Source: Bacteroidales bacterium (GTDB lineage: Bacteria; Bacteroidota; Bacteroidia; Bacteroidales; Bacteroidaceae). Taken from it: a stretch of DNA of 59,444 bases. Every line of letters begins with the position of its first letter. Within the stretch, counting starts at the first letter, position 1. Where the stretch lies: contig JAUMXY010000012.1 in NCBI GenBank assembly GCA_030528885.1, positions 1 through 59,444 of the forward strand. The letters run 5' to 3'. The position numbers were made by a program, and so were the translations under genes. The notes below the pieces were generated by a model. That model did not search any database and was not told where the DNA came from. It worked only from the letters and a program-made list of their open reading frames with translations. Shown here piece by piece: positions 20,819-37,199 of the stretch.

Positions 20819-21890
20819 AAAGATTCTTATACAACGTATACACTACATCTGTCCTATACTCTCTATAAACTTTTTCGTAACCTAGTCGCCGAATCTGATC
20901 AGCTTCTTTTTTATGATTTAAAACCCATTTAATCTTTTCAACAATATCATCTACGGACTTTTCTCTAACAATCAAGCCACACCGTTGTCCGTCACTATTA
21001 GTTAACATGTCACCAATTGCAGCACGGTTTGTTGATAGGACAAGCTTACCAAGACTCATCGCCTCTAAAATAGAAATAGGAAAGGCCTCCCAAGGGTAAT
21101 ATGTCGGCAAGGCAAGAATGTCGACAGATTGCATGAAACGAATAGCGTCTTCATTGGATAATCTTCCTTTTAAAAATATCCGTTTGCCTATATTCTGACC
21201 TGCTAATGACTTTATTTTGCTAATTACTTCCTCATCACCGTCCCCCACAATATACAAACAGACCTTTTCGTCAATTTCACAAATAGCTTCCACCAATTCC
21301 ATTAGGCCTTTACTTGGAATCAGATTACCTATAAAGGCTATTTTTTTGTACTCACTGGGATATATGACAACGTCTGATAGAGCCTGGATTGAATTGGGAG
21401 TTAAGAATACCTTATTGGCCAAGGGACTGTAGCTTTTCAGTTTCTTTTCTGAACGTCGATCCAACACCCAAATTTGATCATACAGGCACATCGTTTTCTT
21501 CAGGAACCACCCAACAGCAGGTCTCTCTAAATCTTCAGAAATACATCCATAGTGACAATGCATGATGCTTTTTATATGATATTTCTTACATATTTTTGCT
21601 ATAACATAATCTCTAAATGTACCTATACTTCCACTTGTTGTTGTATGAAGAATGTCTATATTTTCATTCACTATCGTCTTTTTAACTTCTTTTCTAATTT
21701 TTTTCAACTCAAAATATCCTGCGACTAATCTACTTTTCAAACTGTTTTCTTCAAATTTTCGTCCTTTAACCACTCTGTCTACTGGGAAAATATGATAATT
21801 AACATAACAAAATGTCTTTACAAATTTTCTTGACCAAGAAGCAATGCCACCATTACCAGTTAATAACGTAAGCAAAAGTATATTTCTCAT
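20799..21890 (-). CDS. Family 4 glycosyltransferase
   Basis: A 363-residue GT-B enzyme. The N-terminal glycine-rich segment is TGNGGIASWSRKF. The C-terminal half has the GT4 signatures IAFIGNLIPSKGLMELV and LALPTYYPWEAFPISILEA, including the E-x7-E type motif that contacts the nucleotide sugar. It is one of two GT4 enzymes in the locus. The sugar donor is unknown. The DNA is AT-rich compared with flanking housekeeping genes. Confidence 0.9.
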   Translation of the reverse strand: MRNILLLTLLTGNGGIASWSRKFVKTFCYVNYHIFPVDRVVKGRKFEENSLKSRLVAGYFELKKIRKEVKKTIVNENIDILHTTTSGSIGTFRDYVIAKICKKYHIKSIMHCHYGCISEDLERPAVGWFLKKTMCLYDQIWVLDRRSEKKLKSYSPLANKVFLTPNSIQALSDVVIYPSEYKKIAFIGNLIPSKGLMELVEAICEIDEKVCLYIVGDGDEEVISKIKSLAGQNIGKRIFLKGRLSNEDAIRFMQSVDILALPTYYPWEAFPISILEAMSLGKLVLSTNRAAIGDMLTNSDGQRCGLIVREKSVDDIVEKIKWVLNHKKEADQIRRLGYEKVYREYRTDVVYTLYKNLYEKLFD

Positions 21891-21902
21891 TTTATCAATG
21901 TG

Positions 21903-22985
21903 TTAAAAAATTAATTCACATTTATTAATGGCTGAATGTTCTGAAATCGCGAACAAATAGAATGCGAATAGTAAGTATAGGGCAATAAAGCCATATTTTT
22001 CCACCCTCCCAATTCTTTTCGCTACATAAGGAATAAAAATGCAATCATAACAAGTGAAATACAATATCAAACGGGGGATGATTTGACCACCTTCCTGAAG
22101 AACTGATATGAATGCGAAAGAAGTGGACAAACACAGTATTTTATATAGTAAAAGCCATTCTGCTTCATTCTTTTTGTATGGTAACACGTATTTTGTCGCT
22201 AAAAACCATACAGGCAGATAGAAAATTATTGTTCCAAATGAATTTGTACTAGCTTCATTAATATATTTCTGATACCCTTCTGTATTCTCAACAAATATGA
22301 TTGATGCGACAGATAGCGAGTAATATAACACAATAGTGAACACAAACACATAGAAAAAAAAACAATGGTTAGTTTTAACAAATATAAAGCCAATTACAAT
22401 AAGTAATAAAATAGCTGTTGGATGAATAGAATACGAAATAGCAATTATTAGCAATACACATAATAGATATTTCAATTTGTTGGTATTTATATATTTTACG
22501 AGTAGCGGAAATGCAACTAGGGCAATAGAGACTGCGGCATGTTGACGAAGCACAAATGTACTCTGTATGAATCCCATAAAATACAAAAGACAAGAGAACC
22601 AAACTATTGGCGAGTATTTCTTAATGATGTAGAAGTAGGGTAATGATATTATGCAGCCCATCACGAACTGGAAATAATATTCAGATACAGAAAAAAAGCC
22701 AATAACCTTGTTTAGCAGATAATACCCATATTGCATCTTATAATAGTAAGAATTTGCAATATAATAATTTGAATTATCTGATGCAATATATTTAAATGCA
22801 GGAATATACGCATGTATATCATCCATAATTCGCCAATTCTTGAAGGTATGAAAGAATATCACGGAAAAGAATGTAATGGCGATATAAAGCCTGTTCTTGG
22901 TATTCTTTTTAAAACCACAGAAATTAACAAACAGGAACAGTATTACTAAAACAATTAAGTTAATTAGCAAATATGGCATGATCAT
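21903..22985 (-). CDS. wzy: EpsG-family polysaccharide polymerase (Wzy)
   Basis: A 360-residue protein with about 10-11 hydrophobic segments and long charged loops, resembling the EpsG branch of Wzy polymerases. Seen motifs include DIHAYIPAFKYI in the first outer loop and FVLRQHAAVSIALVAFPLL. It would join repeat units on the outer face of the inner membrane. Its start overlaps the upstream acetyltransferase gene by 26 bases. Two ATGs (22985 and 22979) are equivalent. It is the only candidate polymerase in the locus. Confidence 0.8.
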   Translation of the reverse strand: MIMPYLLINLIVLVILFLFVNFCGFKKNTKNRLYIAITFFSVIFFHTFKNWRIMDDIHAYIPAFKYIASDNSNYYIANSYYYKMQYGYYLLNKVIGFFSVSEYYFQFVMGCIISLPYFYIIKKYSPIVWFSCLLYFMGFIQSTFVLRQHAAVSIALVAFPLLVKYINTNKLKYLLCVLLIIAISYSIHPTAILLLIVIGFIFVKTNHCFFFYVFVFTIVLYYSLSVASIIFVENTEGYQKYINEASTNSFGTIIFYLPVWFLATKYVLPYKKNEAEWLLLYKILCLSTSFAFISVLQEGGQIIPRLILYFTCYDCIFIPYVAKRIGRVEKYGFIALYLLFAFYLFAISEHSAINKCELIF

Positions 22986-23568
22986 CTGTTACTCTATTTT
23001 TTATTATTTTTGCAGGAATACCTCCGACTACACAATTATCAGGAATATTTTTTGTTACAACAGCATTGGCTGCGACAAACACATTAGATCCTATCTCTAT
23101 TGAGCCGAAGGCCTTGGCACCTGGGCCAAAGGCTGTGTGATCTCCTATTGTGGGCCTTGCTTCTTGACTCTCTTTATTACCAATTAACACTCCAGAGTTA
23201 AACCCACAATAATTACCTATTCTTTTCGCATTAAGAAGAACACCACCCCCTCCTGAAAGATGCATGATTCTTAACCCATATCCGCATGTGTTCACAGGGA
23301 TATAGATGTTGTATTTGTGTCCCAATCTTAACAATTTGAAGTAATAGGTATAATAAAAAAACTTATGAACAAAACATTTTGACATATTGTTTTTGTGATA
23401 CTCACACATTCTCATACATTTTATATATCTATACGCGCACGCATTTTCTGCCCCCCCTAGTAAATGTACCAAATAGTATAAATATCTTTCACAACCATTT
23501 CTTTTGGCATCTTCACGCAGAAAAAAAAGCAAATCTTTTTTAGTCTTTATAAACATGACTTTCATCAT
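22960..23568 (-). CDS. Serine acetyltransferase-like hexapeptide transferase
   Basis: A 202-residue protein with a helical N-terminus and a C-terminal left-handed beta-helix of the serine acetyltransferase branch (GYGLRIMHLSGGGGVLLNAK, IGSNVFVAANAVVTKNIP, VVGGIPAKII). In polysaccharide loci such proteins acetylate sugars rather than serine. It begins immediately after the upstream glycosyltransferase stop and overlaps wzy. Confidence 0.82.
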   Translation of the reverse strand: MMKVMFIKTKKDLLFFLREDAKRNGCERYLYYLVHLLGGAENACAYRYIKCMRMCEYHKNNMSKCFVHKFFYYTYYFKLLRLGHKYNIYIPVNTCGYGLRIMHLSGGGGVLLNAKRIGNYCGFNSGVLIGNKESQEARPTIGDHTAFGPGAKAFGSIEIGSNVFVAANAVVTKNIPDNCVVGGIPAKIIKNRVTDDHAIFAN

Positions 23569-24648
23569 TTAGAGTTCTTGTATCAATTTTTCGTATTTTG
23601 AAAGAAAATTTTGGCGAGAAAACATATCAATTGCCTTTTTTCTATTCCGGTTTGACATTCTTTCTCTATCTTTTTGATTCATCATTATAAAACAAATGAT
23701 TTTGTCAGCTATATCATTTATATCCATTGGATCAAATAAGAATCCATTCTTTTCGTTTTCTACTATTGCAGGATTATCACAAACATTGCTACAGATGACG
23801 GGCAAGCCGCAACTCATGGCCTCGCAAAGAACATTTGGAAATCCTTCATAAATAGAAGGAAGACAAACAGCATCAAATTCTTGATAAACAGGAACCATAT
23901 TCAAGGTCTGTTTCTTAAAGGCGAAAGCACCCTCATCCATCTTCAACTCACTCATGAGTTCATGGCATTTCAAAATATATTCACCATCTGTTCTACCATA
24001 CCAAACAACACTTACATCATATTTTTCCCTTACAATATTTATCGCTGATATGAAATTTAACACATTTTTTTGTTTGCAGACCCTGCCAACACCCAAAATT
24101 AGGTATTTCCCAGCGGGTTTAATGGGGCATTTTTGAGGGACAAATAAATCAGTATCCACAAAATTCGTAATAGTAACCATTTTGCTTTGTAACATCGGGA
24201 AATTGTCCTTAATAAAAGATGTCTGTGTGTAGGAATTGGGAACAATTTTGTCTGCGTTCTTATATAAATAGAACTTCAGTTTTTCTTTTATTCCCAATAG
24301 TTGAGTAGTATTCCTCTCTGAGACTATTAGTTTAAATTTCTGATTAAATATATGGCATATACAAGCCAGCATATTAGGTGTATCCAGATACGAAATAACA
24401 ACATGGGGGTTGAATTCCTTTATATAATTATAAATGATAAAAAAACGTAAGAATTTATTCTTTGCCAACCGCTCATAATGATAATTCACATTATTCTCTT
24501 TTAATACAGGAAGATAGAATGAATGGTCATGGTATGTCAGCAAAGTGATATCATAACCTTCTTTACTCAACATTACTGCTAAACCTACAATTTGCCTTTG
24601 AGCTCCTCCTGAGATAAGACTATCTATTAATAAAAGAACTTTTGTCAT
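23569..24648 (-). CDS. Family 4 glycosyltransferase
   Basis: A 359-residue GT-B enzyme. N-terminal LLLIDSLISGGAQRQIVGLA is the typical acceptor-side loop. C-terminal motifs are ILGVGRVCKQKN and LPSIYEGFPNVLCEAMSCG, carrying the E-x7-E nucleotide-sugar contact. It is followed directly by the acetyltransferase gene. The donor is unknown. Confidence 0.92.
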   Translation of the reverse strand: MTKVLLLIDSLISGGAQRQIVGLAVMLSKEGYDITLLTYHDHSFYLPVLKENNVNYHYERLAKNKFLRFFIIYNYIKEFNPHVVISYLDTPNMLACICHIFNQKFKLIVSERNTTQLLGIKEKLKFYLYKNADKIVPNSYTQTSFIKDNFPMLQSKMVTITNFVDTDLFVPQKCPIKPAGKYLILGVGRVCKQKNVLNFISAINIVREKYDVSVVWYGRTDGEYILKCHELMSELKMDEGAFAFKKQTLNMVPVYQEFDAVCLPSIYEGFPNVLCEAMSCGLPVICSNVCDNPAIVENEKNGFLFDPMDINDIADKIICFIMMNQKDRERMSNRNRKKAIDMFSRQNFLSKYEKLIQEL

Positions 24649-24870
24649 ACGAACATCTGTTATTTTACTGAACTTTCGGGAGTTAAAGTGGAAATTAAAA
24701 TGGAAGAAGACAAGAAAACAAGAAGATAAGCAGACAAGGAGACGAGACGAATGTTATGATAAGCGGCAGAAACGTCAGCATCAGTAACGTCTTGTATTCT
24801 CGTATTCCAAAACCCAAGTGCTTAACTCCCTATTTAACTTCATTTTATAACTTCAGAAACTTAAATTATT
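24649..24870. other. Intergenic gap inside the locus with 8-bp repeats
   Basis: No gene is seen in this gap between two glycan-assembly genes. It contains the five-unit 8-bp array at 24707-24746. Overlapping ORFs on the plus strand have no domain. Confidence 0.5.
24707..24746. repeat. Five degenerate 8-bp units
   Basis: Units AAGACAAG, AAAACAAG, AAGATAAG, CAGACAAG, GAGACGAG run without gaps. The array is at a gene junction, like the 7-bp arrays elsewhere in the locus. Confidence 0.75.
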
Positions 24871-25776
24871 TTATTTGTATTTTTCTATATTTCGTGGCAA
24901 TCGAAGAGATTCTCCAAACTTGTAATCCCATTCCATTGGCACGAACGGCATCATACCACTCCAATGGAAGAAAGTCAACTCTCCAAAATATACTCTTCCT
25001 GAAATATTATATAAATCAACGCGAATATGAGGAAATCCTATCGATAGTCTTTCTGCAATCTGTTTCATTAACTCGAAATTTTGAGGTTTTTGGGGAACAA
25101 CTGGATTATTTGGATGACCATTAGTAAAAGGCAAATGATTCCATTCCATATCAAAGAAGTCAAATTTTGTATCTGTGTCCTTTTTAAATCTGTCTGTAGC
25201 CACAAATAAATATTTGGGTTTACTATCGAAGCAGAAGAATTTGTAATCCATCAATTCACCACTTTCATCTTCCATATATTGCTCTGCTATAATTCTACGT
25301 GGTACATTCTTATACGGATACTCTCTATTCTGGATGAAATAAGCACGTTTCAGTCCCTTGTGCATCTTCTCTCTTGCTACATTTATGTCCAGTTTTGATT
25401 TGTCACGGCAGACGACAATACCACCACTGTCGTGCGTACATTTTAGTACAAACCGATTAGGTAACTTATCAAAGTCTATTTCTTCGGCCGAATTGTAAAC
25501 AGCCAGTGTAGGAATGATGTACTTCTCACCGATAACGCCAGCCACATATTCCTTTGCTGCTACTTTGTCCACCATTTTGGTGTATTCTGGATGCCTATCA
25601 TTTAACTTCAGCCATTGGAGCCTCTCCGAAAAGGTTCTTGGATTATCCAAATTCAAACGATACCCCATGCGGAGAGGGAAAAGCATTTTTAAAAATATTT
25701 TATCACTCTTAATAAGAGGAGCTATTTGATATAGCAACCTTATGCCTATCTTCCGACAGATTTCCTGTATTTCCAT
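24871..25776 (-). CDS. TupA-like ATP-grasp protein
   Basis: A 301-residue protein of the ATP-grasp family related to TupA, which builds teichuronopeptide, and common in capsule loci. Seen motifs are NPRTFSERLQWLKLNDR near residue 46, FVLKCTHDSGGIVVCRDK for ATP binding, and the C-terminal IRVDLYNISGRVYFGELTF with metal-binding side chains. It probably ligates an amino acid or similar group onto the glycan, or acts as an atypical glycosyltransferase. The reaction is not known for this branch. Confidence 0.82.
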   Translation of the reverse strand: MEIQEICRKIGIRLLYQIAPLIKSDKIFLKMLFPLRMGYRLNLDNPRTFSERLQWLKLNDRHPEYTKMVDKVAAKEYVAGVIGEKYIIPTLAVYNSAEEIDFDKLPNRFVLKCTHDSGGIVVCRDKSKLDINVAREKMHKGLKRAYFIQNREYPYKNVPRRIIAEQYMEDESGELMDYKFFCFDSKPKYLFVATDRFKKDTDTKFDFFDMEWNHLPFTNGHPNNPVVPQKPQNFELMKQIAERLSIGFPHIRVDLYNISGRVYFGELTFFHWSGMMPFVPMEWDYKFGESLRLPRNIEKYK

Positions 25777-25780
25777 TATA

Positions 25781-27235
25781 CTATTTGTTGTTTTTGCGAG
25801 TTTTGAAAAATACTGTAAATCGTTTAATAATATAATATGCTTCTTTTTTATACGCTAAAAGCGTAATTAGGTCTAATAAAAGCACTGAGCAGACGATATA
25901 TATCATATTCAAAGTAATAGACGGAATGACTAGAATCAGTATCATCAAAATTATCCCAACAATGCTCTTTCTATATGATTTAATAGAATGATAATATTTT
26001 TGTCCCCAATATGTATTAAGCGAGTATAGTATAATCCCCGAGACAGCATTTGCAATAGCTGCTCCCATAAGTCCCAATGGTTTTATAAGCAACAGGCAAA
26101 GACCTATATTTGCAAAAACAGATACAATATGGGTAATTAGATTAATCTGATTTTTTTTTGCTAATGCGATTCCCTTGTCAGTGGTTTCCATAATAAAAGA
26201 CAAAGTTGGCAAAATTAATAGAAGAGAGAAAAATGATTTACTATGATGAAAATCAGTGCCAATCACCAAATATATTAAATCACGTGAAAACACAAAGATA
26301 GATAAAATAGCTATAGTAAGGACTATTAAATAATCATGTACTCTCGTGATTTTCTTTTGTTCCGTTATGTAATTTTTATATACAAAAGCCGACCAATATG
26401 TGGAAAAGCCCCCCTTTATTGCACTAAAAATATGTACAAACATTGCTGTCGAAGAAAAAATTCCTAGCGCATAATGACTAATGACAGAACTAATTAATTG
26501 CTGGTTTACATAAGTGTTTAGATATGTGATAATATATGTCGGAGCACAAAATAGGGCAAAACGAAAATACTCCCCATATCCTTTTAGATTTATAGAAAAA
26601 CGAGCATGACCATTAATATCTTTAGGATAAAACTCTTTCTTTTGGAAATACAAATATACAAAAAGAACTAACAACATCCCGATTGACAATATAGATACAA
26701 TGCCAACAAAGGATGCTGTAAAAAATGCTGCAAATATTAGAAGAATACGAGATAGACTATTGCTGAGAATATTTTGAACTGTATATTTCCTTGTTTGAAA
26801 GGACATTCTGAATGATATATTCAGCATTCTTAAAGATAATTGGCAGAAAGTGTAGATAAAAAGCACCCCAATCAACAATCTACTCGGTATTCCAAATACA
26901 AAATTCGAAACCGATCTCCCAATAAAAATTGCAAACACGACACCTACAAAAAAACTAACAGATGCCGTCAGTACCAAATTCTTATATAATAATTGATTTC
27001 TTGTGTCTGAACCTGGGGGGTCATTATAGAAACGTATTAACGCTCCATCCAGTCCCAAAGACAACATGTATATCATAACACTTGTTGCTGAGAAGAATAA
27101 AGAAACAAGGCCATATATTTCTGGTGAGAGAAGCCGTGTCGTTATTATTACAGAGAAAAAGCCCAGAAACAGATTCATCCATGTTGATACAGAATATTTG
27201 GCTATTCCACTTACAAGATTTAAATTGCTATTCAT
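25781..27235 (-). CDS. wzx: Polysaccharide flippase (Wzx)
   Basis: A 484-residue membrane protein with about 12-14 hydrophobic helices, of the MOP/Wzx superfamily. The N-terminal GIAKYSVSTWMNLFLGFF and SPEIYGLVSLFFS are characteristic. It would flip the lipid-linked repeat unit across the inner membrane for Wzy. It begins 2 bases after the upstream gene. The coding DNA is strongly AT-rich. Confidence 0.9.
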   Translation of the reverse strand: MNSNLNLVSGIAKYSVSTWMNLFLGFFSVIITTRLLSPEIYGLVSLFFSATSVMIYMLSLGLDGALIRFYNDPPGSDTRNQLLYKNLVLTASVSFFVGVVFAIFIGRSVSNFVFGIPSRLLIGVLFIYTFCQLSLRMLNISFRMSFQTRKYTVQNILSNSLSRILLIFAAFFTASFVGIVSILSIGMLLVLFVYLYFQKKEFYPKDINGHARFSINLKGYGEYFRFALFCAPTYIITYLNTYVNQQLISSVISHYALGIFSSTAMFVHIFSAIKGGFSTYWSAFVYKNYITEQKKITRVHDYLIVLTIAILSIFVFSRDLIYLVIGTDFHHSKSFFSLLLILPTLSFIMETTDKGIALAKKNQINLITHIVSVFANIGLCLLLIKPLGLMGAAIANAVSGIILYSLNTYWGQKYYHSIKSYRKSIVGIILMILILVIPSITLNMIYIVCSVLLLDLITLLAYKKEAYYIIKRFTVFFKTRKNNK

Positions 27236-27237
27236 GA

Positions 27238-28578
27238 TTATTTACAGTGGCAATATGAACTTTTAAGTACAGTTCCGATTTTCTCCTGATACCTTTTTAT
27301 TTCATCCTCAATGCCATATATATTCTTATCAAATAAACTCACGACTTTTTGTTTATGCATAAAAGGCCAAATCACTTTTTTGACTCTAAAAGCCTTACAG
27401 AAAGAATAAAAGGGAATGTTGAGCCAATACATAATGGCGTTTCCGAAACCATCAACGTTGCAAATATTTAACCTATTGTAATTTCCATAATCAAAATTAA
27501 AGCCTTGATATTCACCCTTTAAAAGCTTCTCACAAATATCAGCAATCTGACGAAATGCAGGTTCTGTGTCAGTCTTACCATAAAAATATTCCATTCGTTC
27601 AGCTGTAATTGGAAAATCAAACTGATTATTTGATATTGAATTCTCAAAATCTTCATAAGTCTTTAGTGATTTTACATCTGAAAGTATTGACACCTCAAGA
27701 TTATGTGGTATCTCTATAGGTCGCACAATATAGCAAGATTTTTCTGCATAGAACAAATCTGCAATAGAAGTGCTATACCAATTGTAAGCTTTATCGGCAA
27801 CTATTGCCCACTGTCTCATGGAATAATCACCTATCACTTTAAAGTTAGGTGTTCTTTTTGTTATCTCAAAGAATATTTGATGAGTCTTCTCGGCTGGATG
27901 AGGTCTATAAATAAACGTCTTATCTGGAAACTTTAGTGCCGCCGCCTCAAGCCATACTGCCACTTCTTTTAATGTTTCATCGCTCAGTTTGTTAAAAACT
28001 CTTGCTGTAGGACTCAACATTTCATATCTTACAAGTTCTTCTTCTGTACGATTTGCATATGAAAACGAAGAAACAAACAGAATCCATTCAGAATTCGGGT
28101 CTAGGTTAAATTGTCTTGCTATTTTTTGCTTTGTCAGGAAATAGTTAGTAAACTCTTTTCTCATTAAATCCATTGACATTGAGCCTGTCACATGTATATT
28201 CGATTCTGGAATTCCTACACTTCTATACCTCGATGCTTGATCTTCGCCCCATGCAATGTGATGAGCAAATTTAGCCTGACCTTGGGGATTATGAATGTCA
28301 TCTTCTTTAATACTAGTTCCTAAAATCTGCTCATATTGCAAATCGACTATATTCTTGTTACTCAACCAAAAATTCTTTGCGAATCCTATAAGTTGCTGTT
28401 CATTGTAAAGATGAGGAACAACCAACACTCTAGGCTTTATAAAATACTTGAAAGGCGAACAAATATTTCTAATTTTTACCTCATACCCTCTCAACTCCAA
28501 CTCTGTTGCTAAAAGGGCGCAGTTCTCAATCTCTCTACTACGACTTTCATATAATATCAAAATATCAGTCATCGCCAT
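27238..28578 (-). CDS. Surface carbohydrate biosynthesis protein
   Basis: A 446-residue soluble protein resembling the surface polysaccharide protein family that accompanies sialic and legionaminic acid genes. It has a GT-B-like layout, with N-terminal ILILYESRSREIENCALLA, a middle HPAEKTHQI segment similar to polysaccharide kinase/transferase motifs, and a last part with cysteine and aromatic residues. It may transfer the nonulosonic acid or another sugar, but this is inference from context. It begins 6 bases after ptmE ends, preceded by a run of A residues before the ATG. Confidence 0.7.
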   Translation of the reverse strand: MAMTDILILYESRSREIENCALLATELELRGYEVKIRNICSPFKYFIKPRVLVVPHLYNEQQLIGFAKNFWLSNKNIVDLQYEQILGTSIKEDDIHNPQGQAKFAHHIAWGEDQASRYRSVGIPESNIHVTGSMSMDLMRKEFTNYFLTKQKIARQFNLDPNSEWILFVSSFSYANRTEEELVRYEMLSPTARVFNKLSDETLKEVAVWLEAAALKFPDKTFIYRPHPAEKTHQIFFEITKRTPNFKVIGDYSMRQWAIVADKAYNWYSTSIADLFYAEKSCYIVRPIEIPHNLEVSILSDVKSLKTYEDFENSISNNQFDFPITAERMEYFYGKTDTEPAFRQIADICEKLLKGEYQGFNFDYGNYNRLNICNVDGFGNAIMYWLNIPFYSFCKAFRVKKVIWPFMHKQKVVSLFDKNIYGIEDEIKRYQEKIGTVLKSSYCHCK

Positions 28579-28584
28579 TTTTTT

Positions 28585-29625
28585 TTATAAATGTCTCATT
28601 AAATCTTTTGCTTTTTCATATTCTTGTGGATTACCAATATCTATCCATGTCCCATTCAATGGATAACGAATGACTGTCTTTCCCTCCGCTATCAATTTCT
28701 CCACCAAATCTGTGGCATTAAAGAATTCGCCATCAGGAATCTCTTCCAAAGCGCGACGTTTGATCAAATAAATACCTGCGTTGGCATAATGATTGTATTG
28801 TGGCTTCTCCAAGAGTCCCTTAATATTACGACCTTCCAAATCAAGAATGCCGTAAGGGATACTCACATTGTAAGGCACTGCAGCCACTGACATCTCAGCC
28901 TCATGTTGTTGGAAATGAAGGAAGAAATCCTCATAGTCAATATTGGTGAAGAGGTCGCTATTCATGACCAATACCGTGTCATTGAAAAAATTCTCCACAA
29001 ACTTCACGCTACCAATCGTCCCTAAGAATTTGGGTTCCCGAACTGTCTTCACCTGTACTCCATTTCGTGGTTCATGATAATGCTCCTCTATCTGTTCCTT
29101 CAGATAATTGACTGTGACTGAGATATGACTAACACCGTAGGAGATTAGTCTGTCCACATTGTGATCTATAATACATTTGTCGCCCACTTTTAACAGAGGT
29201 TTAGGAGTTTTCTCTGTCAATGGTCTGAGCCTTTCTCCTTTTCCCCCTGCCATCAGAACAGCATCGATCGGCAGTCTCGTCTTAAACCTCTGCAAATCTA
29301 TTATCTCAACAATATGATTCTCTTTATCTAAAACTGGAACCAACTTCATTTGCATTTTTTTCTGATGCCGAATCTCTCGCACATTCTCTATGTCATCAAC
29401 ATGCATGAATTTGAAATCGCGATGCATCACAATGTCTATCGTGTCACTGACCGAAGCACCTGCTATCAAAGCCCTGCGAGAATCACCGTCTGTGAGCGTA
29501 CCAACCATACGGTCCTGCTCATCAACAACAAAGAGCACCAATGGGCCAAGCCCCAGACTATTAATGCGTATCAGGGCATCCATCAACCTTTCATGCTGAT
29601 TAATAATATACCTCTGTTCCATCAT
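28585..29625 (-). CDS. ptmE: CBS-domain sugar nucleotidyltransferase (PtmE/LegX type)
   Basis: A 346-residue fusion. Residues 1-115 hold a CBS pair (DALIRINSLGLGPLVLFVVD, MVGTLTDGDSRRALI). Residues about 120-346 are a sugar-phosphate nucleotidyltransferase with the signature VLMAGGKGERLRPLTEKTPK and catalytic LVMNSDLFTNID. In the Campylobacter legionaminic acid route PtmE makes GDP-glucosamine, the activated substrate of the later steps. It overlaps legF as ATGA. Its presence is a main reason to prefer legionaminic acid over sialic acid. Confidence 0.82.
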   Translation of the reverse strand: MMEQRYIINQHERLMDALIRINSLGLGPLVLFVVDEQDRMVGTLTDGDSRRALIAGASVSDTIDIVMHRDFKFMHVDDIENVREIRHQKKMQMKLVPVLDKENHIVEIIDLQRFKTRLPIDAVLMAGGKGERLRPLTEKTPKPLLKVGDKCIIDHNVDRLISYGVSHISVTVNYLKEQIEEHYHEPRNGVQVKTVREPKFLGTIGSVKFVENFFNDTVLVMNSDLFTNIDYEDFFLHFQQHEAEMSVAAVPYNVSIPYGILDLEGRNIKGLLEKPQYNHYANAGIYLIKRRALEEIPDGEFFNATDLVEKLIAEGKTVIRYPLNGTWIDIGNPQEYEKAKDLMRHL

Positions 29626-30311
29626 AGCAAATCTTCCGTTATGATTAATTCAGCCAATTTCCAGTCAATCATATTATCCAAATCAACAGAATGCAAATCG
29701 TCCATCACATACTTTATCCGTCTCGTAAACTTTCCCAAAGGCATCTTCTTCAAACTTTCAGGATTGATGACATAGATGGCTCCATTATATTCGTATACTT
29801 TGGGAACATCCTGTCTCCTCGTATAGAGTCCTTCTCCTTTGGATATGTGAAGAAATCCTTGCGAATCCTCCTCGAAGCAATTGTAATAAGGATTAGATGA
29901 TGTTTTTTTTACGGAAACGACCATGTCTATAGATGATGTATATAGTTTCAGTGCTTCTCTCACGTGCCCGGCTGTTCGGAAAGGAGAGGTGTTCTGCAAC
30001 AGAATAACATTATCATAACGCTTGCCTTGCTTCTCATAGTAATCGAGAGCATGGAGCAACACTTCATATGTACCAGCGGTATCCGTGGCCAATTCTGCAG
30101 GACGGATAAAAGGCACTCTCAACCCATAATCCTCCACACATTGAACAATCTCCTTGTCATCGGTGCTGACACAAATATCCTCATCATCGACTATCTGACG
30201 AGCCACGTCAATTGTATAGTGAATCAGCGGTTTTCCATTCAGAGACTTGATGTTTTTATGGGGTATCCCTTTGCTACCACCACGAGCCGGGATAATGACT
30301 AGTGATTTCAT
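29622..30311 (-). CDS. legF: CMP-nonulosonate cytidylyltransferase (LegF/NeuA type)
   Basis: A 229-residue cytidylyltransferase. The CTP-binding motif IPARGGSKGIPHKNI is at residues 7-21, LLQNTSPFRTAGHVREAL is the sugar-binding segment, and the metal-binding aspartates are near the C-terminus (HSVDLDN). It activates the nine-carbon acid to its CMP form for transfer. NeuA (sialic acid) is the alternative name; neighbouring legB, legC and ptmE favour legionaminic acid. It is coupled to legG and ptmE by overlapping start and stop codons. Confidence 0.85.
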   Translation of the reverse strand: MKSLVIIPARGGSKGIPHKNIKSLNGKPLIHYTIDVARQIVDDEDICVSTDDKEIVQCVEDYGLRVPFIRPAELATDTAGTYEVLLHALDYYEKQGKRYDNVILLQNTSPFRTAGHVREALKLYTSSIDMVVSVKKTSSNPYYNCFEEDSQGFLHISKGEGLYTRRQDVPKVYEYNGAIYVINPESLKKMPLGKFTRRIKYVMDDLHSVDLDNMIDWKLAELIITEDLL

Positions 30312-31462
30312 TATAAATTGTGGAAATGTTTCTGAATAATATTATCAAGTGGACAGGTACTGATGACCTTCAAAATGGCATCACAAGTCCCTTCTTTGTA
30401 ATAAGGATTATCAATAATCTTATGCCCGTATGCCACCACCATCTTCAAACCCTCCCTAATCTCTTCTTTAGAATACCCACAATGAATCACGCTGTCAGCA
30501 GCAATACGCCCTTTCTGGCGGTCACCAATATCCAGTGTGGGAATTCCAAAACTCGGTACTTCAATGATACCACTAGAAGAATTACCAATCACTGCAGTCA
30601 TGTGTTTCAAGGCTGAGAAATAGCGTCTCTGACCTAATGAAGGGATGAACATGCATCTTCCTTGGTTCTTATCGACATACTCTTGGATTCGCTTGATGAT
30701 GATCTGCGAGTTGGTGTCTGAATTGGAATAGGTGAAGATAATATGGTGGTCTTGATAATCATCCAATGCTTCCAACAAGTTCAACACCTGCGTTTCCGAT
30801 GACATGTTGGAAAGCGTAACTGGATGGTAAGTGCAGAGGAAGCACTTGTCTGAAATCATGAAGTTCAAACTCCGCTCTATTTCCTCCTTGCTCATGACGT
30901 CATTCTTCAGTACATTCTCTACACCCAATGCTCCTACGTTAAAGACCCTGTCGGGCTGTTCTCCCAACTGTATCACCCTCTTTCGATAAGCCTCAGTGGA
31001 AGTGAAATGCAGATGGCTCATCTTGGTGATGGCATGACGGATGGCATCATCAAAAGCGCCTTCAGTTATCTCTCCTCCATGAAGGTGGGCAATGGGAATC
31101 TTATAAATGAGTGCAGTTGAAGCCACTGCCAGCATCTCATAACGGTCACCCAATATCAGCAGCAAGTCTGGCTGCAAGGCATCAAAAGCATCTGCAAAAC
31201 CACTCACACCTCTACTGATAGCCTTCGCTGTGGTGTTGGCATTATCTGGTGCCTCATCATCTGCCATATATACTTTGTAGTCAATGGTAAATCCGTCTCG
31301 CTCAATCTCCTTATAGGTCTCACCCTGAAGTTTTGAGAGGTGCTGGTTGGTGGCAATGACTTGAAGGGTCAAGTCCGGGTCACTCGTGATGGCTGACATC
31401 AAGTTCCTCAAAATGCCATACTCAGCACGGCTGCCAGTGACTACGCAAACTTTACGTTTCAC
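30311..31462 (-). CDS. legG: Hydrolysing UDP/GDP-sugar 2-epimerase (LegG/NeuC type)
   Basis: A 383-residue epimerase of the NeuC family, which releases the nucleotide while inverting C2. Signatures are VCVVTGSRAEYGILRNLM at the N-terminus, LILGDRYEMLAVA, HLHGGEITEGAFDDAIRHAI and GNSSSGIIEVPSFGIPT. The product would be the 2,4-diacetamido-2,4,6-trideoxymannose used by LegI. The start is GTG at 31462, with no in-frame ATG nearby. A 7-bp repeat array (31464-31498) abuts the start. Confidence 0.87.
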   Translation of the reverse strand: MKRKVCVVTGSRAEYGILRNLMSAITSDPDLTLQVIATNQHLSKLQGETYKEIERDGFTIDYKVYMADDEAPDNANTTAKAISRGVSGFADAFDALQPDLLLILGDRYEMLAVASTALIYKIPIAHLHGGEITEGAFDDAIRHAITKMSHLHFTSTEAYRKRVIQLGEQPDRVFNVGALGVENVLKNDVMSKEEIERSLNFMISDKCFLCTYHPVTLSNMSSETQVLNLLEALDDYQDHHIIFTYSNSDTNSQIIIKRIQEYVDKNQGRCMFIPSLGQRRYFSALKHMTAVIGNSSSGIIEVPSFGIPTLDIGDRQKGRIAADSVIHCGYSKEEIREGLKMVVAYGHKIIDNPYYKEGTCDAILKVISTCPLDNIIQKHFHNL

Positions 31463-31463
31463 A

Positions 31464-31498
31464 AATTGAGAATTGAAAGTTGATAATTGACCATTAAA
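31464..31498. repeat. 7-bp repeat array at the legI/legG junction
   Basis: Plus-strand units AATTGAG, AATTGAA, AGTTGAT, AATTGAC, CATTAAA. They fill the gap between the legI stop and the GTG start of legG. Confidence 0.7.
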
Positions 31499-32510
31499 TC
31501 TCTAAGAGTTCTTCTTCAGAGAAGTCACGCGATGCTGTTTGACCAAGCACTTCTTCCCAGCGCATGGGTGAAATACCATTGCCGGGGCGTTTCACAGTCA
31601 GGTTTTGTTCTGTGAAGATTTCACCTGCCTTAATACCGCAAGCAGCGACGATGCTTTTGCGGGCAATGGCGATGTTCTTACGCTCACTTTCGCTCACATG
31701 CTTGATTCCATCGCCGCCAACAGCCTTTTCGATATTGCGGATGGCACTCACCATTGCTTTCAGTTCATCTGGTTCCAGACTGGCTTTATGGTCTGGACCT
31801 TCCATATTGCGGTCAAGGGTGAAGTGCTTTTCTATGACTGTCGCACCTAAGGCTACTGCCGCAATGGGCACCTCTATCCCCTTCGTATGGTCACTATACC
31901 CCACTTCAACCTTAAATTCATCCTTCAAGGCAATCATTGCCTTCAGGTTTACATCCTCAAAGGGGGTTGGGTATTCGGTGTTACAGTGAAGGATGGTTAT
32001 CTGCTCTCTCTTGACGCCAAACTTGATAAGCACATTCATGGCTGCACAGATGTCATCCATCTCACACATGCCCGTGGAAAGGATGACAGGCTCGCCATAT
32101 TGTGCAATCTTCCTGATGTAAGGGAAGTTGGTGATCTCCCCTGACGGTATCTTCCAAAGACCCATGTGGAGGAAGTGGAGATAGTCGATGCTATCCATGT
32201 CGAAGGCTGTGGAAAAGAACTTGATGCCTTTCTGTTGACAGTATTGCATCAGTTCCTCATGGTCTTCTTGTGATAGTTCCAGCTTCTTCAACATATTCAG
32301 CTGGCTGTCATCCGCCTTGCTGCCGATGTTCCTTTTCTGATATTCCGCCTGCCTGGCAGACTTGGACACCAGTTTCTCCGACTTGAAGGTCTGGAACTTG
32401 ATGATGTCGGCACCTGCCTCCGCCGCTTTGTCTATCAGCTGTTTGGCAACATCAATGGAGCCGTTGTGATTCACACCAGCTTCTGCTATGATAAGTACGT
32501 GATTTTTCAA
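31494..32510 (-). CDS. legI: Nonulosonate synthase (LegI/NeuB type)
   Basis: A 338-residue enzyme condensing a six-carbon amino sugar with phosphoenolpyruvate. The N-terminus IIAEAGVNHNGSIDVAK and the segment VEVGYSDHTKGIEVPIAAVA are NeuB-family hallmarks, with metal-binding histidines in HCNTEYPTP and SDHT. The last 60 residues (ARKSIVAACGIKAGEIF) are the SAF antifreeze-like domain. The only reasonable start is TTG at 32510: the frame upstream has no ATG before a stop. The start lies inside a 7-bp repeat array. Confidence 0.9.
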   Translation of the reverse strand: MKNHVLIIAEAGVNHNGSIDVAKQLIDKAAEAGADIIKFQTFKSEKLVSKSARQAEYQKRNIGSKADDSQLNMLKKLELSQEDHEELMQYCQQKGIKFFSTAFDMDSIDYLHFLHMGLWKIPSGEITNFPYIRKIAQYGEPVILSTGMCEMDDICAAMNVLIKFGVKREQITILHCNTEYPTPFEDVNLKAMIALKDEFKVEVGYSDHTKGIEVPIAAVALGATVIEKHFTLDRNMEGPDHKASLEPDELKAMVSAIRNIEKAVGGDGIKHVSESERKNIAIARKSIVAACGIKAGEIFTEQNLTVKRPGNGISPMRWEEVLGQTASRDFSEEELLEI

Positions 32511-32529
32511 TTGAGAATGGATAATTGAT
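32509..32529. repeat. 7-bp repeat units at the legH/legI junction
   Basis: Units AATTGAG, AATGGAT, AATTGAT on the plus strand. The TTG start of legI is formed at the edge of this array. Confidence 0.65.
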
Positions 32530-32534
32530 TGTAA

Positions 32535-33170
32535 TTACCTTACTTTGATTTTCAAGATGGCAGGATTGCCAGAATAGATACCTTTCTCTTTAATGGACTT
32601 TCTCACTAAAGATCCGGCACCCACAATGATATCGTCTCCGACAGTGATGCCATTAGCTAAGACGGATTGGCTTCCGATGAAGCAGTTGTTGCCCACCTTG
32701 CAGTCGCCATTGACCATTGTACCTGTGGATATATGGCACTGGTCACCTATCACGGCATCATGCTCAATATTGGTGAAGGTATTCAAGATGACATTGCTGC
32801 CCACCTGAGCTCCTGCATTGACAAAGGCATGGTGCATGACTACCGTTCCTTCACCGATTTTGGCATATTTGGACACATGGGCAGTAGTGGCAATGACTGT
32901 TGCTAACTTGCCGCCCGCCTCTTTTACCTTATTGAAGAGTTTGATACGGACTGCAGGGTTCTTGATAAAACCCACGGTGATGACAAACTCTGCCTTATCC
33001 ACATAGGAGGGTATATCATCATCTGTGCCGATGACTTTATAGGCAAGCACATCCTTGCCCACTTCCTCTGGCATATCCAGTATGCCAAGAATTTGGTAGC
33101 CAGCACTTTCTGCGACTTCAATCACAGACTTGCAATGGCCTCCACCTCCTATGAGAATTAATGGTTTCAT
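32535..33170 (-). CDS. legH: Amino-sugar N-acetyltransferase (LegH/PglD/NeuD type)
   Basis: A 211-residue two-domain protein. The N-terminal Rossmann part starts LILIGGGGHCKSVIEVAES and the C-terminal part is a left-handed beta-helix with hexapeptides such as IGEGTVVMHHAFVNAGAQVG and the catalytic histidine in NIEHDAVIGD. In the Leg route it acetylates the 4-amino group made by LegC. It overlaps legC as ATGA. Confidence 0.85.
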   Translation of the reverse strand: MKPLILIGGGGHCKSVIEVAESAGYQILGILDMPEEVGKDVLAYKVIGTDDDIPSYVDKAEFVITVGFIKNPAVRIKLFNKVKEAGGKLATVIATTAHVSKYAKIGEGTVVMHHAFVNAGAQVGSNVILNTFTNIEHDAVIGDQCHISTGTMVNGDCKVGNNCFIGSQSVLANGITVGDDIIVGAGSLVRKSIKEKGIYSGNPAILKIKVR

Positions 33171-34318
33171 TTAACTCTTACGCTGCTTGGAATATTCACC
33201 ACTCTATCTGCAAACCATATAGTGTTTTTAAGCCCATCGTTCTCGCAGTTCTCAAACATGGGAAGACGGTTCATCAGTTCCCAGATGGGGCGCGTCATCA
33301 CACCGTTATCATTGGTATATTCAAGGAAGTCCTGCTGCGCCTCCTTGTCCTTCAAGATGACCACATTCAACCAATAGTTACTCCTTGTATCTGGTGTATC
33401 GACAAAGAACTCTATTTCTGGAATGTCCTTAAAGAACTCTTCGTATGCCTGGGCGGTCTCACGTTTGCTTGCCACATACTCCTCAATATGCTCCAATTGG
33501 GCACAGCCCAATGCTGCATTGATGTTAGGCATACGGTAGTTATAGCCAATATGGTCATGCTTGAATTCCCAACGATGAGGAATCTTTGCCTGTGTCGTGA
33601 TATGCTTGGCGTATACGCCCAGTTCTTCATCATTGAAGAGCATCATACCTCCACCGCCTGTCGTGATGGTCTTGTTACCATTGAAACTGAGAGCACCTAC
33701 CTTGCCAAAGGTCCCAGTGTGCTTGCCTTTGTAAAGAGAGCCTATACTTTCGGCAGCATCTTCCACCAGTTCGATATGGTATTCATTGAGGACTTCCACC
33801 AGTTCATCCAAATGTACGGGATGACCGAAAGTGTGCATGGGGACACACGCCTTAACTCTCCGACCTGTGTTCTTATTATAGCACTCACCATTCTTCTGTT
33901 CCGAGTTCTTGGCAAGCCATTCTCTTACAGCGACAGGAGAAAGCCCCATGGTGTCTCTATCCACATCAATGAATACGGGATGAGCACCTATGTAACTCAG
34001 CGCATTGCAGGTGGCGATAAAGGTCAGTGCCTGTGTCAGCACCTCATCATCTCTTTGTACACCTGCCAACATCAGTGACATGTGCAGGGCATTGGTACCA
34101 CTTACGCACACCACAGCACGTTTCGCACCTGTATATTTTGCCGTTTCCTCCTCAAAACGGTCAACGAACTTACCCACACTCGACACGAATGTGGTATCTA
34201 TACACTCATTGAGGTATTTTTTCTCATTTCCAATGAATACAGGAACAGCAAGAGGCACAAAGTCCTTTGCTCCGTATAAATCATGGATAAAGTCTGTTAT
34301 TTTTTTGTATTCCACCAT
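33167..34318 (-). CDS. legC: LegC-type sugar aminotransferase
   Basis: A 383-residue DegT/DnrJ/EryC1 PLP enzyme. The Schiff-base lysine is in LSFNGNKTITTGGGGM, with VEDAAESIGSLYKGK before it and HDHIGYNYRMPNINAALG after it. It aminates the 4-keto sugar from LegB. Motifs such as FVSSVGKFVDRFE and the IDTTF start region suit the LegC group seen in nonulosonic acid clusters. ATG at 34318 is a clear start. A 7-bp-like array separates it from legB. Confidence 0.87.
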   Translation of the reverse strand: MVEYKKITDFIHDLYGAKDFVPLAVPVFIGNEKKYLNECIDTTFVSSVGKFVDRFEEETAKYTGAKRAVVCVSGTNALHMSLMLAGVQRDDEVLTQALTFIATCNALSYIGAHPVFIDVDRDTMGLSPVAVREWLAKNSEQKNGECYNKNTGRRVKACVPMHTFGHPVHLDELVEVLNEYHIELVEDAAESIGSLYKGKHTGTFGKVGALSFNGNKTITTGGGGMMLFNDEELGVYAKHITTQAKIPHRWEFKHDHIGYNYRMPNINAALGCAQLEHIEEYVASKRETAQAYEEFFKDIPEIEFFVDTPDTRSNYWLNVVILKDKEAQQDFLEYTNDNGVMTRPIWELMNRLPMFENCENDGLKNTIWFADRVVNIPSSVRVK

Positions 34319-34322
34319 AGTT

Positions 34323-34350
34323 ATTTACTATTTACGGATTTACAATTTTA
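34323..34350. repeat. 7-bp repeat units at the legB/legC junction
   Basis: Units ATTTACT, ATTTACG, GATTTAC, AATTTTA on the plus strand. The last unit includes the legB stop codon. Confidence 0.5.
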
Positions 34351-35586
34351 CATCTTTTGGTCCAAGTTCTTTCCCTTTTCCTCATGCTCGAAGTTGGGGA
34401 TAAACTCCTTGATAGCCTCCACGACCTGAGCCTTGGTGAAGTCTTCTTTGTGGAAAATTGCTTCAAGGTTCTCAAAGAAAGTATTTACCTCATCCATATC
34501 ATGACGAGTTGTCTGCTCCACAACTCCTAACGCTTGGAAGCGTTGCATGTCTATCTTTTCACCAGGAACGTAGAACTCCTCGTAAGACTTCTCACCAGTT
34601 GTATCACTTTTGAAATACACCGTTGGGTACTTTAATGGTTCAGAGTTTAGGACTGAGAGTTTAGCGTCCGTTAAATCAAGTTGGGAGGCTTTGAGTTTTG
34701 CTTCAGCATCTGATGAGCAAGAGTCTTTCTCCATGCCATTGGCTTTCACAAAGTCATCACAAATGGAAGAGAAGGTGAGCATCTGGTCTTCGCCGAGTTT
34801 GGGGAAGAATACCTCACCGCCTTTTCCAAGGATACAGGCAAGCATGCAGATTTGACCTGATTCTTCGGGAGAAACAAAATAACGTTTCACATCTGATGGG
34901 GCAGCCAGTGGCTGTTTCTTCTGGAGCCTGTGAATCCATCCGTCAGGTAATGAGCCGTTACTGAAAGCCACGTTGGCAAAACGGGCTGTCGTCACCTTGA
35001 AGTATTGGTTATAAGCCATCACCAAATCTTCCATGATGCGCTTAGAGGCTCCCATGATGTTCACCGGGTTGGCTGCCTTGTCGGTGGAGACACAGAAGAA
35101 ATGCTTGGGAGGATAAACGGTCAGCAAGTCCATCAACTTCTTCGCCTTGATGTCATTGTTCTCAATAAGAGCCTGCACAGAGTACTTATCCTTCTCAGAA
35201 CGCACATGCTTATGAGCGGAGAAGTTGGCGACGATATCAAAACCTTTCTCTTCACGGAAGATTCGTTCAAAGATTGGGTCGGCGAAGTTGAGTGTATAAC
35301 AACGGAACTCATCTGGGACATACAACCCTTCAGTGGAGCGCACATCTCGCACCAATTCTGCTAGTCCGTTCTCATTGAGGTCAACCACTACAACACTCTT
35401 TGGTTCAAAACGCAGCACTGCCTTGATGAAAGAGGAGCCAATGGAGCCTGCTCCACCGATAACGCATACCTTTTTGTCCTTGATTTCTTTGGTAAGCGTT
35501 TCTTTGTTTGCCTCTATATCAGCAGCGAACATGCTGACAGGGCGTTTCGTCACACTGTCAGATATGAATTTATCAAGATTAAACAT
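34348..35586 (-). CDS. legB: Nucleotide-sugar 4,6-dehydratase (LegB type)
   Basis: A 412-residue extended short-chain dehydrogenase of the polysaccharide dehydratase group. The NAD-binding motif GGAGSIGSS starts at residue 44, the catalytic region is FCVSTDKAANPVNIMGASKR, and ANFSAHKHVRSEKD carries the substrate contacts. It removes water from a UDP- or GDP-GlcNAc type sugar to give the 4-keto-6-deoxy product, the first step of the Leg route. It is longer than Campylobacter LegB, with an extra 40 N-terminal and about 60 C-terminal residues, and has no membrane segments. It follows the long repeat-filled gap after upxZ. Confidence 0.82.
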   Translation of the reverse strand: MFNLDKFISDSVTKRPVSMFAADIEANKETLTKEIKDKKVCVIGGAGSIGSSFIKAVLRFEPKSVVVVDLNENGLAELVRDVRSTEGLYVPDEFRCYTLNFADPIFERIFREEKGFDIVANFSAHKHVRSEKDKYSVQALIENNDIKAKKLMDLLTVYPPKHFFCVSTDKAANPVNIMGASKRIMEDLVMAYNQYFKVTTARFANVAFSNGSLPDGWIHRLQKKQPLAAPSDVKRYFVSPEESGQICMLACILGKGGEVFFPKLGEDQMLTFSSICDDFVKANGMEKDSCSSDAEAKLKASQLDLTDAKLSVLNSEPLKYPTVYFKSDTTGEKSYEEFYVPGEKIDMQRFQALGVVEQTTRHDMDEVNTFFENLEAIFHKEDFTKAQVVEAIKEFIPNFEHEEKGKNLDQKM

Positions 35587-35704: not shown

Positions 35705-35861
35705 GTCAACAGACAACGGCTATTTAATTGAAAGTTGAAAAGTGAAAGTTGAGAATCTTAACGAGTTGAAAGTTGAAAAGTGAGAGTCGAGAATTAACCG
35801 AAGGCTGACAACAGGCAACAGACAACAGACAACGGACAGAAGTTATCGAATTGAGAATCGA
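35705..35861. repeat. Long degenerate 7-bp repeat array
   Basis: About 22 consecutive heptamers of two related kinds: AGTTGAA-like (for example AATTGAA, AGTTGAA, AAGTGAA, AGTTGAG at 35726-35753) and AGACAAC-like (35806-35833). There is one 3-base break in register at 35761-35763. Confidence 0.85.
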
Positions 35862-35916: not shown

Positions 35917-36447
35917 TTATTGGAATTGGAGCTGAAAGAGCTCCTGGAGGTAGTGGTCTTCTTCGGTCATGGTGTCGTCTTGCCATGTAGACATGAGACA
36001 GTCGATGGCAGGGAGCAGATCCTCGTCTTGGGTCTCTTGGAAGAGGTGGACGAGGAGGGGTAATTGACAACGGACAACGGGCGACGGACAACGGACAATG
36101 GACGACGGACAATGGTTGTCGAATTGGGAGTTGGGAATTGGGGACTCTGCGGTTTCTGCCAGCTGGGGCAGGAGGTCGTAGGCCATGTCGGTGGCGCGAG
36201 CGAAGAGGTCGGGGTCGCGATAGCCGATTTGGAGGGCTACGAAGATGGTGAGGAGGAGGTCGGCTCGTGCCTCGAGGGTGAGGTCGGGGCGTTCCAGCTC
36301 TGCGAAGAGGCGAGTCACCATGCTCTGAGCTTCCTGTGCGTCAGCCTGATAGTCTTGGATGGCGTAGTCGTCTTGGATGTCCTCGAGGAGCATCTGACGA
36401 TAGCACTTCAAGCGGAAGGCTTGCAAATCAGCTTGTGTCTCTTTCAT
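35917..36447 (-). CDS. upxZ: UpxZ-like regulator, with internal repeat array
   Basis: A 176-residue acidic, helical protein. It sits directly after upxY (2 bases) and matches the general pattern of UpxZ proteins, which in Bacteroides fragilis inhibit UpxY antiterminators of other loci so that one polysaccharide dominates. Conserved-looking parts are ADLLLTIFVALQIGYRD and the C-terminal LLPAIDCLMSTW. Between them about 26 residues (from SPIPNSQFDN to VVRCQ) are encoded by eleven 7-bp repeat units at 36066-36142. The present copy number keeps the frame open, and one unit more or less would break it. Assignment rests on order and weak motifs, so moderate confidence. Confidence 0.65.
   Translation of the reverse strand: MKETQADLQAFRLKCYRQMLLEDIQDDYAIQDYQADAQEAQSMVTRLFAELERPDLTLEARADLLLTIFVALQIGYRDPDLFARATDMAYDLLPQLAETAESPIPNSQFDNHCPSSIVRCPSPVVRCQLPLLVHLFQETQDEDLLPAIDCLMSTWQDDTMTEEDHYLQELFQLQFQ
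36066..36142. repeat. Eleven 7-bp units inside upxZ
   Basis: Plus-strand units are GACAACG twice, GGCGACG, GACAACG, GACAATG, GACGACG, GACAATG, then GTTGTCG, AATTGGG, AGTTGGG, AATTGGG. All are in exact 7-base register. Both unit kinds match those in the gap at 35705-35861. Confidence 0.9.
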
Positions 36448-36449
36448 CT

Positions 36450-37199
36450 TCAGTCGTTGATAATCTCGAAATCACAGGTACGGATGTAACCTGTGCCGTA
36501 CTTCCCGAATTGTCCTAAATCGACGAACACTCGACGCTGGTGTTTCCATTTGAGGAGGGTTCCTTCCACTCCTTCAAAGACTCCTCCGACGACACGCACC
36601 CGTTTGCCTGACAGATATGCGGGCATCTGGTCCTGATCGATGAGTATGTCTTCATGACCTGACTCGATGATGCATCGGAAACTCTCGAATTGGCGGTCGG
36701 GAACTGCCAGATAGTCGTTCTTCCCTGTTGATGAGGTGGAGAAATGGTCGTAGAAAGGGGTGAATCCCGGTATGTTCTGCGCCTCTCGCACCAGTTTGCG
36801 GTAGTTGTCATAAGAGGAGCGGACAAAGAGCAGTCCTGCATGGACGGGCTTTTCTTCCACTTCCATGAAGGGCTTTCCGTCCACAATGCGACACACTTGT
36901 TTCTTGGTCACTGGCAAATAAGGTGTTATGCCAGCCTCTGCGCTCAAGCCCATAAGTGAGTCATAGACCGTTTTAGCCCTTCCGTAGGTGACTCTGGCGG
37001 CATACCACCGAACGGCAGCTTCCTCTTTTTTCTTCTTTAAATATAATAATGTGTCATTGAGGGGATGTCCCTGCAGCGCATTCTCTACCGACTGCCCATT
37101 CTGTGCATTGCTTGGAATGGGTGGCGTATTGGATATAAATCCTCTACCAAGTTCAGGTCCTGCCGCCTGAAGGGAAAAATCAAATTGGTTTGTTTTCAA
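36450..37199 (-). CDS. upxY: UpxY-type NusG-like transcription antiterminator
   Basis: A 249-residue NusG paralogue. After a 60-residue non-conserved N-terminus comes the NusG N-terminal domain (RWYAARVTYGRAKTVYDSL) and, at about residues 195-245, the KOW domain (LSGKRVRVVGGVFEGVEG). UpxY proteins bind RNA polymerase at the long leader of their own polysaccharide locus and prevent early termination. It is the first gene of the locus, as in Bacteroides fragilis. No ATG lies between the in-frame stop at 37212 and the NusG domain, so the start is probably the TTG at 37199. Two other TTG/GTG starts in this locus make this less odd. Confidence 0.88.
   Translation of the reverse strand: MKTNQFDFSLQAAGPELGRGFISNTPPIPSNAQNGQSVENALQGHPLNDTLLYLKKKKEEAAVRWYAARVTYGRAKTVYDSLMGLSAEAGITPYLPVTKKQVCRIVDGKPFMEVEEKPVHAGLLFVRSSYDNYRKLVREAQNIPGFTPFYDHFSTSSTGKNDYLAVPDRQFESFRCIIESGHEDILIDQDQMPAYLSGKRVRVVGGVFEGVEGTLLKWKHQRRVFVDLGQFGKYGTGYIRTCDFEIIND

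Follow-up and report, generated by a model that had tools for sequence, protein, structure and literature searches.

The window, by which we mean the whole 59,444-nucleotide stretch of DNA analyzed here, from an uncultured bacterium of the gut, carries on its minus strand a polysaccharide locus headed by two regulator-like genes. The order runs from an upxY-like gene (37199-36450) to an upxZ-like gene (36447-35917), second in line and directly after upxY, and from there into the polysaccharide genes. The features on which the first part of this report draws are the following.

36450..37199, minus strand: upxY-like antiterminator gene, NusG family (PF02357, E 3.3e-6, above the cut-off)
35917..36447, minus strand: upxZ-like gene, an open reading frame of 176 aa, 2 nt from the upxY-like gene; its family reaches PF06603
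36066..36142, minus strand: eleven-unit heptamer array, in frame within upxZ
35728..35838, no strand assigned: further heptamer arrays, intergenic, downstream of upxZ (Tandem Repeats Finder rows 35728-35778 and 35807-35838)
20799..35586, minus strand: polysaccharide genes after upxY-upxZ (Pfam matches in 9 of 10 scanned ORFs, the scan covering part of the ORFs in this span)

The upxY-like product matches the antiterm_UpxY model NF033644 with an E value of 2e-25 and 89.7 bits, which is under the model cut-off of 100. Pfam matches in the downstream genes include Polysacc_synt_2, DegT aminotransferase, NeuB, nucleotidyl transferase, flippase, TupA-like ATP-grasp, EpsG, and glycosyltransferases; the ORF at 27238-28578 had no Pfam match at 1e-5.

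An array of eleven heptamers within the upxZ reading frame

The array occupies 77 nt, or 11 units of 7 nt in strict register. On the coding (minus) strand, the successive units read CCCAATT, CCCAACT, CCCAATT, CGACAAC, CATTGTC, CGTCGTC, CATTGTC, CGTTGTC, CGTCGCC, CGTTGTC, and CGTTGTC, a mosaic of three AATTCCC-like units, one CGACAAC, and seven GTTGTCC-like units. The tract is degenerate and not uniform, no run of identical units being longer than two, and Tandem Repeats Finder splits it into two rows (36066-36112 and 36121-36142). At a lag of seven, the best 70-nt segment of the gene contains 49 matching positions; the maximum was 36 in 1,000 dinucleotide shuffles of the gene and 38 in 100 shuffles of the whole window. 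The 176-codon ORF stays open across the array, a non-triplet tandem repeat within a reading frame. The array is real and non-random: the unit listing, the shuffles, and the open ORF all confirm the first-pass annotation, which had described eleven 7-bp units in exact register within the frame of upxZ.

Relationship of the window gene to UpxZ

When searched alone against PF06603, the window protein returned no match at E values up to 10, and the family link comes through its relatives. A homolog from the same genus that is 42% identical to the window protein (L007) scores 35.2 bits, above the PF06603 cut-off of 21.2. In the set of eight homologs to which it belongs, searched at E values up to 10, one other protein matched (L006, 15.1 bits, below the cut-off). 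When the window family (13 proteins) was aligned as a profile to 12 UpxZ proteins, hhalign gave a probability of 98.8% and an E value of 7.6e-17; all 12 of these proteins are themselves PF06603 matches, 11 of them from genus g26 and 1 from genus g135. A direct PF06603 search of the window's own genome and 149 genomes of the order gave no match, and 14 controls were equally empty, which makes this search uninformative. Using a homolog profile instead, we found matches in 22 of 399 genomes of the family; 8 of the 22 belong to genus g26, and 7 of these 8 hold two to five matches each. On these sequence comparisons, the window gene is taken as an UpxZ homolog. The earlier description of the gene product as an UpxZ-like regulator is thus borne out through its family, including homologs that lack the insert described below; as for PF06603 itself, the homolog L007 passes the cut-off and the window protein goes unmatched.

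The array as an insertion in the UpxZ linker

Between the anchors that flank the array, the window protein has 34 residues, compared to 8 in each of four insert-free homologs (L004, L007, and L051 from the genus of the window and L117 from another genus). The linker is likewise short and free of heptamers in the 12 UpxZ proteins, which come from two other genera. These alignments identify the array as an insertion within a linker that probably tolerates insertions and joins a PF06603-like N-terminal part to a conserved C-terminal part.

A search of 45 genomes of the genus gave matches in 14 and yielded 12 close upxZ genes. These include two in the window genome (G000), namely, the window gene and a second copy on contig C3 that is counted once, and two in G018, a genome of a related species (contigs C67 and C60). 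Heptamer arrays are present at the linker site in exactly these 4 of the 12 genes. Three others carry inserts of another kind (L005, L050, and L058), two carry short heptamer-free extensions (L003 and L006), and three have no insert (L004, L007, and L051). The site is open in 11 of the 12 genes. The search also returned six more distant rows, and the array is absent from the site in the five that were translated; heptamers do occur elsewhere in the reading frames of a distant homolog (L054) and of a fused protein (L052).

The linkers of the two upxZ genes from G068 (L050 and L058) hold GACGGTTTTCCCGTC-like inverted sequence and no heptamers, and the insert of L005, from G014, resembles them at the protein level. 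We considered whether the G068 inserts are dispersed palindromes. A search of 400 kb of G068 did not recover the exact cores a second time; of the five patterns searched, the loosest alone gave matches, four in all, and this identification is not established.

A dispersed class of heptamer arrays in the genus

Similar arrays lie outside upxZ. Matches to GTTGTCYGTTGTC number 31 in the window genome (versus 10 for a reversed control) and 37 in G018 (versus 9 for the reversed pattern), and the pattern was found in 21 of the 45 genus genomes and was absent from the other 24. The unit sequences of the arrays vary within and between species. Tandem periodicity was scanned at lags 4 to 15 in a sample of 20 contigs from each genome, covering up to 20 kb from the start of each contig. 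This gave 14 lag-7 arrays in 313 kb of G011 and 18 in 318 kb of G006; the other lags gave 0 to 2 arrays each except for lag 14, a harmonic of 7 (8 in G011 and 6 in G006). The 400-kb sample of G068 held six lag-7 arrays, not above its six at lag 9, and 400 kb of G421, from another genus, held two. The sample of the window genome (377 kb including the window) held one lag-7 array besides a run of N, versus two at lag 8.

The 31 GTTGTCYGTTGTC matches in the window genome form 22 clusters. Seven clusters overlap ORFs taken as genes: the window upxZ, the C3 upxZ, an NTP_transf_5 gene, a CvfB gene, a TPR-like gene (an assignment below the Pfam cut-offs), and genes for a GHMP kinase and a nucleotidyl transferase, the overlap in these last two being confined to the last codons. 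Two more clusters overlap ORFs, one without a Pfam match (L110) and the other at the end of a contig (L027). The arrays in the CvfB and TPR-like genes are in frame, and that in CvfB adds 21 nt relative to the G018 counterpart. The array in the NTP_transf_5 gene lies within the window.

18480..18516, minus strand: in-frame heptamer array in the NTP_transf_5 gene (18156-19253), of the same length as its G018 counterpart in a 241-nt alignment

This NTP_transf_5 gene matches one located near the C60 upxZ of G018 (near 80.5 kb), and the window upxY-upxZ pair matches that on C67 of the same genome. Regulators and neighboring genes seem to have been reassorted between loci in the two genomes.

A family-2 glycosyltransferase with an array in one loop offers a wider comparison. 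The enzyme search gave a match in all 45 genomes, strong (E below 1e-80) in 41. We inspected the loop in 18 genus loci (L151-L168; 12 returned by the search and 6 picked by hand; the site in the window genome is C53:380-440). Clear heptamer arrays are present in nine loci, two of which are a near-identical pair from G000 and G018; one further locus is doubtful and eight are without an array. The loop units are GACAACG-, TCAACTG-, TCAAACC-, or TCAACTC/A-like and differ between species. All 18 loci keep one frame through the site; a match in G024, outside the inspected set, contains one stop.

The in-frame arrays in these other genes indicate that an array within a coding region is tolerated so long as the frame stays intact, and this argues against a device confined to upxZ. 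The first-pass annotation had proposed a slippage switch in upxZ; specificity of such arrays for upxZ is not supported, as similar arrays occur between genes and inside other genes.

Changes in unit number and their effect on the frame

The window upxZ and its G018 counterpart on C67 are both frame-on. They have eight units in common, with two substitutions, after which the window gene has three extra units and the G018 gene has other DNA; the G018 linker is 3 nt longer in total. The second upxZ of the window genome, on C3, is 14 nt, or two units, shorter than the in-frame gene on C60 of G018. No indel other than this 14-nt gap lies in the coding region, and the gap places the N- and C-terminal parts of the C3 gene in different frames, each of them open and the C part open to its own stop. 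The prediction that a change in unit number other than a multiple of three breaks the frame is thus seen at this second gene. This frame shift is seen in a single assembled contig, and an error of assembly or consensus could account for it.

A whole-unit difference also separates arrays of this class outside upxZ. When segment C53:5901-22369 of the window genome (16.5 kb, chosen after the whole C53-C28 alignment had been viewed) was aligned to contig C28 of G018, the two were 99.07% identical over 16,469 positions, with 147 mismatches and 7 gap positions, the latter forming a single heptamer in the array near C53:11540. Elsewhere on this contig pair, the two sequences are 98.5% identical over C53:1-4703, with five gaps of a single base each and no whole-unit difference; a diverged patch at C53:5184-5883 contains 19 small gaps. 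At C53:393, the array has the same length in both genomes and differs only in substitutions; a further array, at C53:1, is truncated by the end of the contig. At the level of assembled sequence, these comparisons establish that whole-unit differences occur in this array class and that one upxZ allele is frame-off, and they support in part the mechanism proposed in the first-pass annotation.

On this contig pair, about 22 kb align as two pieces, 98.2 and 98.5% identical, against less than 90% identity in the other stretches of G000 and G018 that were compared; the near-identity means either a recent exchange or a mis-binned contig. We considered a mobile element as well and set it aside, since 851 bases around the array match 43 of the 45 genus genomes and look like core DNA.

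These data bear on the possibility that the upxZ array is an inert spacer and that the frame-off copy on C3 represents either a pseudogene or a misassembly. All compared genomes are draft assemblies, and those with record names are metagenome-assembled or uncultured; the window genome is in 73 contigs and is 88.96% complete. Of its 22 array clusters, four come within 50 nt of the end of a contig (C8, C29, C53, and C72), compared to 0.06 expected. This excess shows that the arrays trouble assembly, whether through repetition or through mixed unit numbers, and it favors such a reading, as does the fact that three of the four upxZ arrays in G000 and G018 are in frame. Against it stand the absence of any coding-region indel in C3 other than the 14-nt gap and the openness of the out-of-frame C part up to its own stop. 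We consider a neutral or damaged array a reasonable possibility, though we lean against it.

The same alleles could instead reflect a dedicated phase-variation switch, in which the array is selected in upxZ and slippage mixes frame-on and frame-off cells, diversifying the glycan made. Arrays are present in all four upxZ genes of G000 and G018 with one of them frame-off by two units, the array near C53:11540 differs by one unit, and the neuO gene of Escherichia coli K1, which is full-length when its unit number is divisible by three, provides a precedent (PMC13001214). However, the units of the window array are degenerate, as described above, which leaves a purpose-made slippage tract unsupported. 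In addition, heptamer arrays are missing from the linker in the eight other close upxZ homologs of the genus, and in-frame arrays occur in genes for which we see no reason to expect switching. A dedicated switch is in our judgment distinctly unlikely.

Different grouping of the N- and C-terminal parts of upxZ

The four upxZ genes of G000 and G018 group differently on the two sides of the linker.

36164..36447, minus strand: N-terminal part of upxZ, the locus-specific side (among informative sites of the four aligned genes, 47 are locus-type and 0 genome-type)
35917..36057, minus strand: C-terminal part of upxZ, genome-grouping side (informative sites: 2 locus-type, 17 genome-type)

The contrast between the sides is strong (Fisher p 6.8e-14; four genes, no tree). 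In the N part, counterparts at corresponding loci are the more similar (82.3% identity for window-C67 and 88.7% for C3-C60, compared to 66.9% between the two G018 genes and 65.1% between the two G000 genes). In the C part, genes of one genome are the more similar (94.0% for C67-C60 and 85.5% for window-C3, compared to 76.1% for window-C67 and 81.2% for C3-C60). From this pattern, we infer gene conversion of about 130 nt between the upxZ paralogs of each genome.

The array or its linker may accordingly mark the limit of an exchange of C-terminal parts between the two upxZ genes of a genome, with unequal exchange in the repeats changing the unit number. The site counts and the higher within-genome identity of the C parts are consistent with this, and some genome-type sites are synonymous (for example, CTC CCT in both G000 genes and TTA CCC in both G018 genes). 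The grouping switches about 20 nt past the C3/C60 array, however, in a common CTCCTC stretch that is outside the array. Moreover, nonsynonymous codon differences outnumber synonymous ones between counterpart C parts (11:7 for window-C67 and 12:5 for C3-C60), and selection may therefore have a share in the pattern. The two copies in G068, whose linkers are heptamer-free, show a similar if weaker contrast (76.2% identity in the N part and 87.2% in the C part), and the comparison in G000 and G018 covers only four genes. We regard an array that acts as a recombination joint as unlikely.

The slippage and exchange readings can be combined in a two-part contingency locus. Here the array would split UpxZ into a locus-specific N part and a C cassette kept common by gene conversion, and slippage at the joint would frame the cassette in or out, rewiring the network of glycan inhibitors instead of inverting promoters. 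This combination seems to us very unlikely.

A probable mutable site in upxZ

The explanation that we favor, and consider probable, is that the array is a member of a dispersed class of mosaic 7-bp arrays, present in the sampled genomes of this Bacteroidaceae genus, and that it lies in a tolerant linker of UpxZ. It would make upxZ a mutable site, most likely one that is not purpose-made. Changes in unit number would arise by replication slippage or unequal recombination; seven-base units are described as favoring polymerase slippage (PMC4679880, in the part giving its account of Mrazek et al. 2007). Changes by three units would be tolerated, and other changes would remove the C-terminal part of UpxZ, presumably with loss of its function. 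A frame-off upxZ would then relieve the inhibition of other polysaccharide loci, an effect that we liken to that of deleting upxZ BT1357 in a Bacteroides thetaiotaomicron strain without CPS4, which raised CPS2 transcription (PMC7315117). In this manner, the array may turn upxZ off and perhaps back on.

Should heptamers make upxZ mutable, the control of surface glycans in these Bacteroidaceae would gain a layer beside promoter inversion. The class as a whole raises a further question: with the same enzyme loop bearing varied in-frame heptamers in different species, why is the unit seven bases long, and how do the arrays arise and spread?

Comparison with known systems

The window locus resembles the capsule loci under UpxY/UpxZ control in Bacteroides in gene order, in UpxZ homology, and in its position at the head of a polysaccharide locus. 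A difference is that the phase variation described for those loci is by promoter inversion (PMC7315117 and PMC12632263). Among the matches listed in searches on upxZ, heptanucleotide repeats, and slippage in Bacteroides, parts of which were available, we found no report of repeats in upxZ or of intragenic heptanucleotide phase variation for this gene; a search on heptamer tandem repeats in Prevotella found no match.

Dispersed heptamers have been described in other genomes. Direct repeats of TAACTGA are reported from Beggiatoaceae, Cyanobacteria, and five Bacteroidetes, and G-rich heptamers are reported from Xanthomonas and Nostoc (PMC4679880 and PMC4692102). Like the arrays described here, these are seven-base units scattered through genomes, with Bacteroidetes among the hosts. 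They are mainly intergenic and of one or a few sequences, whereas the arrays in this genus have many sequences and in several cases lie in frame in coding loops. Heptanucleotide repeats in Haemophilus influenzae, at the hmw loci and in a few ORFs, are likewise proposed to mediate phase variation (PMC2651432); the hmw tracts comprise 13 to 38 units upstream of genes, in contrast to eleven degenerate units inside a regulator in the window.

The closest parallel is neuO, a phage-encoded capsule O-acetyltransferase gene of E. coli K1 that, like the window upxZ, has a heptanucleotide tandem repeat in its reading frame and that acts on the capsule (PMC13001214). Phase variation of a capsule through an intragenic heptanucleotide repeat is therefore already known. 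In neuO, the unit is AAGACTC, the repeat lies in the 5' part of the gene, and strain MS7163 has 21 units, with measured minorities of 20 and 22 units. The window array differs in that its units are degenerate and lie in the central linker of a regulator, and here switching is only a candidate.
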